A stretch of 64,000 bases of DNA from Nocardioides sp. GTDB taxonomy: Bacteria; Actinomycetota; Actinomycetes; Propionibacteriales; Nocardioidaceae. Of the stretch, positions 24,304-28,093 are shown in pieces. Within the stretch, counting starts at the first letter, position 1. Each line of letters begins with the position of its first letter. The notes beneath the pieces were generated by a model, which saw only the letters and a list, made by a program, of their open reading frames with translations, was not told the DNA's origin and made no database searches. The stretch lies in assembly GCA_030698375.1 (NCBI GenBank), contig JAUYLL010000129.1, positions 1 through 64,000 on the forward strand. Direction: 5' to 3'. The translations under genes were made by a program, and so were the position numbers.

Positions 24304-24504
24304 CTACTCCCCTCCCTTCTGGATGAACGACTTCACGAAGTCCTCGGCGTTGATCTCGAGCACGTCGTCGATCTCGCCGAGGATCGAGTCGATGTCGTCG
24401 TCGAGCTGGTCCTTGCGCTCGGAGACCGCCTCCGACGGGGCCGCGGTCTCGGCGGTCTCCTCCGCCTCGGTGGACTTGCGGGGCTGCTTCTGCTCCTGTG
24501 CCAT
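24304..24504 (-). CDS. pup: prokaryotic ubiquitin-like protein Pup (Glu-ending form)
   Basis: 66 residues, intrinsically disordered and acidic, with the Arc-binding coiled segment ERKDQLDDDIDSILGEIDDV and the conserved end EDFVKSFIQKGGE. It ends in Gly-Gly-Glu, not Gly-Gly-Gln, so it can be ligated by PafA without deamidation by Dop. ATG at 24504 is preferred to the adjacent GTG (24507): GAGGAG lies 6 nt before the ATG but only 3 nt before the GTG. First gene of the pup-prcB-prcA-Nudix operon. Confidence 0.96.
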   Translation of the reverse strand: MAQEQKQPRKSTEAEETAETAAPSEAVSERKDQLDDDIDSILGEIDDVLEINAEDFVKSFIQKGGE

Positions 24505-24573
24505 CACGCTCTCCTCGTTCGGTCGACGGGGCGCCGGGGGCCCTTGTGGGCGGCCTGTCGACGTCTTCTCCCG

Positions 24574-24584: not shown

Positions 24585-26096
24585 TCAGGGCGAGGTCAGT
24601 GCGGCGAACAGCTGCTCGGCCGTGTCGCAGGAGTCGATCAGGTCCCCGACGTGGGCCCGGCTACCGCGCAGCGGGTCGATGGTGGGGACGCGCTGCAGCG
24701 AGTCACGGCCCGGCAGGTCGAAGATGACGGAGTCCCAGGAGGCGGCCACGATCCGGTCGGCGTACTTCTCCAGGCACCGGCCCCGGAAGTAGGCGCGGGT
24801 GTCGTGCGGCGGGTTCTCGACGGCCGCCGCGACCGCGGCCTCGTCGACGAGGGTGCGCATCCGGCCCATGCGGACCAGACGGTGGTAGAGCCCCTTCTCG
24901 GGCCGGATGTCGGCGTACTGCAGGTCCACGAGGTGGAGTTTCGCGTCGTCCCAGTCGATGCCGTCGCGGTCACGGTAGGAGTTGAGCAGGCGCAGCTTGG
25001 CGACCCAGTCCAGCTCCTCGGCACAGGAGAAGACGTCGGTCTCCAGTCGGTCGAGCACGGACTCCCAGCGGTCGAGCACGTCCTTGGTCTGCTCGTCGGC
25101 GGCGTCGCCCTGGCGGTCCTCGACGTACTTGCGGGCGAGCTCGAGGTATTCCCGCTGCAGTTGTATGGCGGTCAGCTCGCGCCCGTCGGCCAGGCGCAGG
25201 CGGTGAGTGAGCCCCGGGTCGTGGGAGACCGCACGGAGCGCGGCCACCGGTTCCACGACGCTGAGGTCACGGTCGATGAAGCGGTCCTCGATCATGGCCA
25301 GGACCAGCGAGGTGGTGCCGACCTTGAGGTAGGTGGAGACCTCCGAGAGATTGGCGTCGCCGATGATGACGTGCAGGCGGCGGTACTTCTCGGGGTCGGC
25401 GTGCGGCTCGTCGCGGGTGTTGATGATCGGGCGCTTGAGAGTGGTCTCGAGGCCGACCTCGACCTCGAAGTAGTCGGCGCGCTGGCTCACCTGGAAGCCG
25501 TGCCCACGGCCGTCCTGGCCGATCCCGACACGACCGGCCCCGCACACGACCTGTCGGCTGACGAAGAACGGGGTGAGGTGGCGGACGATGTCGGCGAACG
25601 GGGTGGAGCGGCGCATGAGGTAGTTCTCGTGCGTGCCGTAGCTCGCGCCCTTGTTGTCGACGTTGTTCTTGTAGAGCAGGATCTGCGGGGCCCCCGGGAC
25701 CTGCCCTGCGAGCCGAGCCGCCTCCAGCATCACCTGCTCCCCTGCCCGGTCCCAGCGCACGACGTCGAGCGGGGAGGTGACCTCCGGGGTGGAGTACTCC
25801 GGGTGGGCGTGGTCGACGTAGAGGCGCGCCCCGTTGCCGAGGATGAGGTTGGCCAGACCGAGGTCCTCGTCGGTGAGCTGCGAGGAGTCGGCGACGTCGC
25901 GCGACATGTCGAAGCCGCGTGCGTCACGCAGCGGGTTCTCCTCCTCGAAGTCCCACCGCGCCCGGCGCGCCCGCGCCGTCGCGCTGGCGTAGGCGTTGAC
26001 GACCTGGGAGGAGGCCACCATCGGGTTGGCCAGCGGCTGGCCCTGCACCGAGATGCCGTACTCGACCTCGGTGCCCATCACCCGTCGCACGCTCAT
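24585..26096 (-). CDS. dop: depupylase / deamidase of Pup
   Basis: 503 residues, homologous to PafA but with the Dop features MGTEVEYGI (N-terminal Glu ligands) and the loop region around [18 protein letters not shown]. Other blocks: [61 protein letters not shown]. Dop removes Pup from proteins and, where needed, converts Pup-Gln to Pup-Glu. Since this Pup already ends in Glu, only depupylation is required here. Leaderless: TAGGCT 6 nt before the ATG. Confidence 0.95.
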
Positions 26097-26102
26097 GATC
26101 GG

Positions 26103-26108
26103 AGCCTA
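26103..26108 (-). promoter_or_regulatory. leaderless -10 box of dop
   Basis: TAGGCT, 6-nt spacer, ATG start. Confidence 0.55.
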
Positions 26109-26134
26109 GCCACCGGGCGGGCGGTCCCGCTTCC

Positions 26135-26167
26135 GGGTGGGCACACCGCGGTGCAGTGTGCCCACCC
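26135..26167. terminator. 12-bp hairpin between the small peptide gene and dop
   Basis: GGGTGGGCACAC (26135-26146) pairs perfectly with GTGTGCCCACCC (26156-26167) around a 9-nt loop. It lies after the arc/small-peptide genes and before the dop promoter. It probably ends the arc transcript, though no T-tract follows. Confidence 0.5.
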
Positions 26168-26185
26168 AGGAGCAGGTCTGGCGGG

Positions 26186-26266
26186 TCATCGCCGCCCGGA
26201 GCGGAACTTCCCGAGCAGGAAGAGCAGGATGAGCACGACGACGACAATGATGATGATGGTCCTCAT
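26186..26266 (-). CDS. 26-residue single-span membrane peptide
   Basis: A short open frame below the usual length limit. It has three N-terminal residues (MRT), 16 continuous aliphatic/aromatic residues (IIIIVVVVLILLFLLG) and a basic tail KFRSGRR. The composition is that of a real small membrane peptide, with the positive end presumably cytoplasmic. No clear ribosome site is present; an inverted repeat overlaps the region just before the ATG. It lies 44 nt after arc and before a strong hairpin, so it may be the last cistron of the arc unit. Function unknown. Confidence 0.4.
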   Translation of the reverse strand: MRTIIIIVVVVLILLFLLGKFRSGRR

Positions 26267-26310
26267 GCGGGCATCATGCCCCGCCCGGGCGCGTCTCACG
26301 CCCGGCTCGG

Positions 26311-28065
26311 TCAGAGGTACTGCCCGGTGTTCGAGACCGTGTCGATGGACCGACCCGGCTCGGTGCCCTGCTTGCCGGTGATCAGCGTGCGGATGAAGAC
26401 GATCCGCTCGCCCTTCTTGCCGGAGATGCGGGCCCAGTCGTCGGGGTTGGTGGTGTTCGGGAGGTCCTCGTTCTCCTTGAACTCGTCGACGCAGGCCTGT
26501 AGCAGGTGCGTGACGCGCAGGCCCTTCTGGTCCAGGTCGAGGAGGTCCTTGATCGCCATCTTCTTGGCTCGGTCGACGATGTTCTGGATCATGGCGCCGG
26601 AGTTGAAGTCCTTGAAGTAGAGGACCTCCTTGTCACCGTTGGCATAGGTGACCTCGAGGAACCGGTTCTCGTCGCTCTCGGCGTACATCCGCTCGACCGT
26701 CGCCCGGATCATGCCGGCCACGCAGGCCTCGCGGTCCCCGCCGAACTCCGCGAGGTCGTCGGCGTGCAGTGGCAGCCCGGGGACGAGGTACTTGGAGAAG
26801 ATGTCGCGGGCGGACTCGGCGTCGGGGCGCTCGATCTTGATCTTCACGTCGAGCCGCCCGGGGCGCAGGATCGCGGGGTCGATCATGTCCTCCCGGTTCG
26901 ACGCCCCGATGACCAGCACGTTCTCCAGGGTCTCGACGCCGTCGATCTCGCTGAGCAGCTGCGGGACGATGGTGTTCTCCACATCGGAGGAGACCCCGGA
27001 GCCGCGGGTGCGGAACAGGGAGTCCATCTCGTCGAAGAAGACGATGACCGGCGTGCCCATGCTGGCCTTCTCACGGGCCCGCTGGAAGACCAGCCGGATG
27101 TGCCGCTCGGTCTCCCCGACGTACTTGTTGAGCAGCTCGGGGCCCTTGATGTTCAAGAAGTACGACTTGCCGGAGCTGCCGGTCTTGGCCGCCACCTTCT
27201 TGGCCAGGGAGTTCGCGACCGCCTTGGCGATGAGCGTCTTTCCGCAGCCGGGCGGGCCGTAGAGGAGCACGCCCTTGGGGGGCTTCAGCTCGTGCTCGAC
27301 GAAGAGGTCGGGATGCAGGTAGGGCAGCTCGACGGCGTCCCGGATCTGGTCGATCTGGCCCTTGAGCCCACCGATCGACTCGTAGTCGATGTCGGGGACC
27401 TCCTCGAGGACCAGCTCCTCGACCTCGGACTTCGGGACTCGCTCGTAGACGTAGCCCGCGCGTGAGTCGAGCAGCAGCGAGTCACCGGCGCGCAGCGCGA
27501 TGTCACGCAACGGCTCGGCGATACGAACGACCCGCTCCTCGTCGGCGTTGCCGAGCACGAGGACGCGGTCGCCGTCGGCGAGGATCTCCTTGAGCATCAC
27601 GACCTCGCCGGTCTGCTCGAACTCCAGGGCGGCCACGACGTTCAGCGACTCGTTGAGCATGACCTCCTGGCCGCGCTGGAGCTCGTCGAGCTCGACGGTG
27701 GGGCTGACGTTGACCCGCAGCTTGCGGCCGCCGGTGAAGACGTCGACGGTGTCGTCGTCGTGGCGGGCGAGGAAGGTGCCGAAGCCCGCCGGGGGCTGGG
27801 CGAGCCGGTCGACCTCTTCCTTGAGGGTCATGATCTGGTCGCGTGCGTCGCGCAGGGTCTGGGCGAGCTTCTCGTTCTGGGCCGTGAGCGCCGACAGCGA
27901 GCGCTGGGCGTCGGCGAGCCGAAGCTCGAGCGCGTGGTGGGAGGGGCCGTCGGCCATCCGGCGACGCAGGTCGCTGACCTCGGCCTCGAGGGAGGAGACC
28001 TGGCGCAACAGGTCCTCACCATTCCGGTCACCCGGGTACTGGGACCCGGTTCCTGATGCTGGCAC
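26311..28065 (-). CDS. arc: proteasome-associated AAA ATPase Arc/Mpa
   Basis: 584 residues. Order: N-terminal coiled coil that captures Pup (about 15-80), tandem OB domains, and an AAA module with GPPGCGKT (Walker A), FFDEMDSL (Walker B) and the arginine-finger region [11 protein letters not shown]. The extreme C-terminus GQYL, with a penultimate tyrosine, is the proteasome-docking tail. It unfolds pupylated proteins into the 20S core. GTG at 28065 is chosen because GGAGG lies 8 nt upstream; a frame-open GTG at 28092 lacks such a site. Confidence 0.95.
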
Positions 28066-28093
28066 GGCACTCACCTCCGCAGGCTGTGGCACG

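Follow-up and report, generated by a model that had tools for sequence, protein, structure and literature searches.

The short open reading frame between arc and dop in the stretch of DNA analysed here (64,000 nt, hereafter the window) is probably, at a likelihood of about 0.7, a gene in its own right, encoding a bitopic membrane microprotein of some 24–28 residues that is found here in Nocardioidaceae only. The earlier note had called it a convincing membrane peptide, and this is backed by conservation, by codon-position constraint and by start signals in relatives, so that the predicted single-span membrane peptide gene is well supported as a real gene.

The frame was confirmed on the minus strand (26186..26266), where it begins with an ATG at 26266, ends with a TGA stop at 26188-26186 and encodes 26 residues (MRTIIIIVVVVLILLFLLGKFRSGRR) between arc and dop, as had been proposed. 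A longer alternative would start at a GTG at 26299 and give 37 aa; the conserved part begins at MRT. The peptide is predicted from its sequence to carry one hydrophobic segment of membrane-spanning length. Its layout of MRT, hydrophobic residues and basic tail is as first described, except that the hydrophobic run consists of 15 consecutive aliphatic or aromatic residues (IIIIVVVVLILLFLL) and not 16; the best 15-mer has a Kyte-Doolittle value of 4.07. Across the six reading frames of the window, it is the sole ORF of 20–45 aa that has both a hydrophobic 15-mer (Kyte-Doolittle at least 2.0) and at least three K/R among its last 8 residues. None of 60 dinucleotide shuffles of the window produced such a hydrophobic, basic-ended ORF (at a Kyte-Doolittle value of 2.5).

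The neighbouring genes are all on the minus strand. The gene for the proteasome ATPase, arc (26311..28092; TIGR03689, E 1.4e-251), stops 44 nt upstream of the peptide's ATG, and the stop of the peptide lies 89 nt before the start of dop, the depupylase/deamidase gene (24585..26096; TIGR03688, E 4e-232). Downstream, the gene order is dop-pup-prcBA, with pup at 24304..24507 (TIGR03687 and PF05639). The arc-dop gap is a fluid stretch of an otherwise conserved gene cluster. Within one genus it measures 0–3 nt (L014, L024) or, as in the window (26097-26310), 214 nt, and elsewhere in the family it exceeds 4 kb (L148, L152, L158). Other small genes recur there. One, of about 116 aa (LGHGDIEAALATRRELGARYDAELVDGFAERIER..., with a hydrophobic C-terminal half), is found directly after arc on the same strand in Nocardioides (L034, L045, L131, L134 and L123) and is lacking in the window; its best Pfam match, DUF3040, is below threshold (E 0.075). 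L131, L132, L041 and L135 share another small membrane frame (MFFWIGVTVVFVVFVGVVTWGLRGIAGRAHEPGTQ...) after arc, for which a Pfam search gave no reliable family.

Sequence comparisons suggest selection at the protein level. Among 21 distinct gap-free ORFs, codon positions 1, 2 and 3 differ in 0.252, 0.093 and 0.317 of pairwise comparisons, and pN/pS is 0.52 (0.61 for the window copy versus the rest), consistent with mild constraint. The 60-base flanks on each side mostly show 0.6–0.75 differences per site, promoter-like stretches excepted. Together with the profile controls given below, the codon positions and the island-like conservation point to protein-level selection on an ORF of under 50 aa. 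The window copy and that of Nocardioides zhouii have 20 of 25 residues in common, with 21 of 75 bases differing. Members share the termini M[RK]T...GFLR, the basic tail of the Nocardioides type being GFLRRGR; some copies (L011, L128, L136, L143 type) have a different tail. These are low-complexity helices, so homology between distant loci is uncertain, and orthology of such short, simple sequences would rest on the termini and, at arc-dop, on gene order.

The distribution of the peptide was followed through the arc-dop gaps of 120 sampled Nocardioidaceae genomes, with loci fetched from about 78 of them, and from 80 named loci; further gaps were added later from genomes found by the peptide profile. 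Counting only gaps in which both the arc stop and the dop start were located gave 148 distinct gaps. In 35 of these a same-strand frame scored 22–49 bits against the family profile, and 113 lacked the peptide. Two borderline frames, in L167 (7.7 bits) and L047 (6.0 bits), were not counted, and the remaining gaps scored below 5 bits; the maximum was 2.7 bits for opposite strands and 4.4 bits for reversed sequences. The peptide profile had itself served to find 14 of the 35 positive loci; without these the proportion is 21/134. This comprises 21 of 87 Nocardioidaceae gaps fetched independently of the peptide and none of 47 gaps in organisms of other families (Streptomyces for the most part, also Kribbella and Actinomadura). 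A Dop query matched 118 of the 120 sampled family genomes, a few of these giving a weaker PafA-type match alone. The window's own Dop has Nocardioides as its first match, which places the window's genome with the Nocardioidaceae.

Since the family profile includes sequences from gap loci, it was rebuilt without the window before the window frame was scored, and this frame was then the sole match (34.7 bits, E 5.6e-10) among the window's 1015 frames. Of 245 genomes sampled across the order, 30 matched the profile at E ≤ 1e-3, every one of them from the same family and with a single match. In 27 (the window's own included) the match is beside dop, in two (G004 and G070) it is elsewhere, and in G307 it is false, being the start of an unrelated 122-aa frame. 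The phylum sample gave 4 matches in 396 genomes. One is the window's own genome; the other three belong to a single genus and match at positions 7–24 alone, inside a 194-aa frame. In the window's genus, two sister species were sampled; their arc and dop genes lie 0 and 3 nt apart, and neither gave a profile match at E ≤ 1. The earlier note would have taken lack of conservation in close relatives as a refutation; here the outcome is mixed, the frame being kept in other genera of the family and missing from both sampled sister species. A search of 72,556 plasmid records for the peptide gave nothing at E ≤ 1. The family appears to be clade-restricted and, among the genomes sampled, is so far known from Nocardioidaceae only.

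The peptide gene is also found away from arc and dop. Ten genomes carry such a copy (G001, G010, G022, G032, G039, G042, G045, G057, G004 and G070), at 11 loci without an arc or dop match, some on short contigs and that of G042 at contig ends. By ORF reading, the neighbours differ, and include a pyruvate phosphate dikinase-like gene, a GGDEF/EAL gene, and a copper ATPase with a CsoR-like regulator. A resolved arc-dop gap was available for seven of the ten (L033, L138, L148, L154, L160, L176, L181), all but G001, G032 and G042, and none of these gaps contained a copy (at most 0.1 bits). Constant linkage to arc and dop, and presence wherever they occur, would be expected of a Pup-proteasome component and is not seen for the peptide.

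These data weigh on the suggestion of the earlier note that the peptide could tether or regulate Arc; on this reading it would recruit the proteasome ATPase to the membrane or modulate it, which would explain its place beside arc. The gene does lie between arc and dop in the 21 of 134 gaps fetched independently of it, and 27 of the 30 matched genomes of the order have a copy beside dop, a position equally compatible with a functional tie and with inherited gene order. However, it is lacking in most gaps, although nearly all family genomes match the Dop query, is absent from the gaps outside the family, and occurs elsewhere in the ten genomes, seven of them with an empty arc-dop gap. Many relatives also have a promoter-like element of their own before the gene. 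The suggestion is not backed by these data, and an Arc tether or regulator is considered improbable. A fusion to Arc by frameshifting is unlikely as well, since the start codons are kept and the peptide gene lies anywhere from 25 to 1788 nt from arc, depending on the locus.

Start signals were compared in 38 distinct copies, 36 at arc-dop and 2 elsewhere. A TANNNT motif, mostly TAGGTT, lies at exactly -12 to -7 (6 nt before the start codon) in 19 of the 38, against 0.3% of shuffled upstream sequences; these 19 copies all come from closely related Nocardioides and are not independent, a kinship that the shuffle rates ignore. In leaderless small-protein genes the -10 element lies 6–7 nt upstream of the start codon and there is no 5′ UTR; at its position here, the motif would be expected to give a leaderless mRNA. 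In the other 19 copies, Shine-Dalgarno matches reach 5 or more bases in 13 (5.9% of shuffles) and 4 or more in 16 (27% of shuffles). The window, L123 and L011 have neither a Shine-Dalgarno match nor TANNNT, and for its own expression the window copy would accordingly be among the least certain of the set. What it carries at -12 to -7 before the ATG is CATGAT (26273..26278, minus strand), a weak match that fits the looser.ANNNT (2.3% of shuffled upstreams) and is no more than suggestive of a -10 element. With CATGAT alone, readthrough from arc combined with a weak start is as likely for the window as a leaderless start. In copies away from arc-dop, TANNNT is present at -12 to -7 in 3 of 10 and.ANNNT in 4 of 10, suggesting that the element often travels with the ORF.

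A dyad, ACACCCCT-(N)-AGGGGTGT, was seen at -51 to -33 upstream of TANNNT copies (L115, L117, L045, L051, L203, L206, L207 and others), where it overlaps the -35 region. Its arms are at least 6 bases long in 9 of 19 copies, compared to 10% of shuffles (mean 5.5 versus 4.1); an operator is one possible role, a short terminator for the preceding gene another. The window instead carries GGGCATGATGCCC over its -10 position.

Type I toxin-like peptides are of similar size, with a single span and a basic tail, and a toxin or otherwise membrane-disturbing peptide was considered for this resemblance. Against it are the single match per genome at the strict threshold, the consensus-like promoter in relatives, and the lack of matches both in the plasmid records and by PADLOC. 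A type I toxin would come with an antisense RNA antitoxin overlapping its mRNA; a consensus scan, of little power in GC-rich DNA, found no sigma-70-like promoter on either strand between 23000 and 31000. Such a peptide is likewise improbable. A Nocardioidaceae-specific membrane adaptor of the Pup-proteasome, in which the basic tail of the 25-residue helix would place Arc, and hence pupylated substrates, at the membrane, and in which genes that had moved would keep a trans-acting role, is very doubtful.

The peptide gene is followed by a hairpin (26126..26176, minus strand), which had been described as a strong one of 12 bp. It is indeed strong, and larger than claimed, with 17 uninterrupted base pairs (arms 26169-26153 and 26149-26133), a 3-nt loop and, past one mismatch, 6 further pairs. 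The predicted fold has an energy of -47.1 kcal/mol (z -6.5), and none of 200 shuffles, made for the window only, was equally stable. There is no U tract. Terminators without U tracts are known in high-GC bacteria, and the hairpin is best read as one of this type, probably a terminator that divides an arc-peptide unit from dop-pup-prcBA. Very strong hairpins of unrelated sequence lie 3′ of the peptide in three compact loci (the window, L156 and L167), while two other compact loci (L011 and L136) have no simple hairpin of this kind after the peptide. The hairpin was also considered as a repeat element, and this was rejected: a search of its own genome returned the hairpin itself, its palindromic self-match and short, weak matches (E ≥ 0.058), and pattern matches within the window were at chance level (6 versus 5.6 expected). 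Rfam at gathering thresholds gave a tRNA and nothing else in the window.

A codon run for Ile, Val and Leu (the window copy is rich in ATC, GTC and CTC), then a strong hairpin, then dop, is also the arrangement of a leader peptide, of which the ilv leaders are the model, and translation of the run could control dop by attenuation. Strong hairpins after the peptide in L156 and L167 agree with this, and in L011, L136, L143 and L156 dop comes next or no gene is seen before it. However, dop does not belong to the branched-chain amino acid genes, and a leader would have no need of the basic tail, whose residues are conserved. The next gene is on the opposite strand at seven arc-dop loci (L114, L034, L045, L035, L131, L132, L134) and, reading unannotated ORFs, at four of nine loci elsewhere (L183, L187, L188, L191). 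At the remaining loci, that of the window among them, the following gene is dop or another one on the same strand, so a co-oriented gene for the peptide to regulate does not follow directly in all members. A leader peptide is highly unlikely. The least likely reading, and one already disfavoured for the family, is that of a chance frame through low-complexity (NTC)n sequence, which the codon usage and weak start signals of the window copy and its absence from the two sister species would suit, and which conservation across genera, codon-position constraint, unalignable flanks, correctly placed start signals and the residues kept in the N. zhouii copy despite the base differences all contradict.

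Searches of known families gave little. The window peptide had weak matches to NCBIfam and Pfam, none reaching a family cut-off. The best NCBIfam matches of other members were to SecG (E 0.0014; one of 27 members) and to the EYxxD small protein (E 0.0029; three of 27), both taken as shared hydrophobicity. PADLOC gave no match, PHROGs nothing better than E 0.22, and PDB none at E ≤ 1. A literature search, with subscription journals mostly outside it, returned no description of the peptide among the matches listed.

On the preferred reading, a membrane microprotein with its own gene, the helix would insert into the cytoplasmic membrane and leave its basic tail facing the cytoplasm, a placement based on the positive-inside rule. 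Through helix-helix contact it could regulate or stabilise some membrane protein or complex as a small subunit. Binding or tuning a membrane protein complex is the commonest role of such peptides and is taken as the most likely one here; by this analogy, the microprotein probably tunes some membrane complex. Its place beside arc would reflect inherited gene order and not a functional tie. In the window, the gene is probably read from the arc transcript, from a weak leaderless start, or from both, with the hairpin ending the arc-peptide unit.

If so, this is a clade-specific microprotein family that is missing from the libraries searched and is short enough for gene callers to miss. The promoter-like element just before the start codon in many copies, including some away from arc-dop, suggests that the whole unit may be little more than 100 bp, a predicted example of a stand-alone leaderless microgene. 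The case also cautions against inferring function from a neighbour such as arc.

Three known systems bear comparison. The window copy lies inside a Pup-proteasome cluster (arc/mpa, dop, pup, prcB, prcA), but the peptide is missing from most of the clusters examined and is found elsewhere in ten genomes. The leaderless small proteins of mycobacteria are encoded by unannotated, conserved small ORFs, many of which precede an operon (PMC4633059). The peptide gene resembles them as an unannotated, conserved small ORF and, in the copies with TANNNT, in having its start codon expected at the 5′ end of the mRNA. Unlike those that precede operons, it often has an opposite-strand gene next, suggesting a stand-alone unit. 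KdpF, CydX, AcrZ, MgtS and Prli42 are small single-span bacterial membrane proteins, and proteins of this sort often regulate or stabilise a membrane complex. As a class, they are discussed in PMC10903887 and PMC11539335. The peptide shares with them a length of under 50 residues, one hydrophobic helix and a short charged end, and differs in having been seen in Nocardioidaceae alone and in having no reliable sequence relation to entries of Pfam, NCBIfam, PHROGs, PADLOC or PDB. It would belong with the small single-span membrane proteins as a kind, and not as a homologous family.
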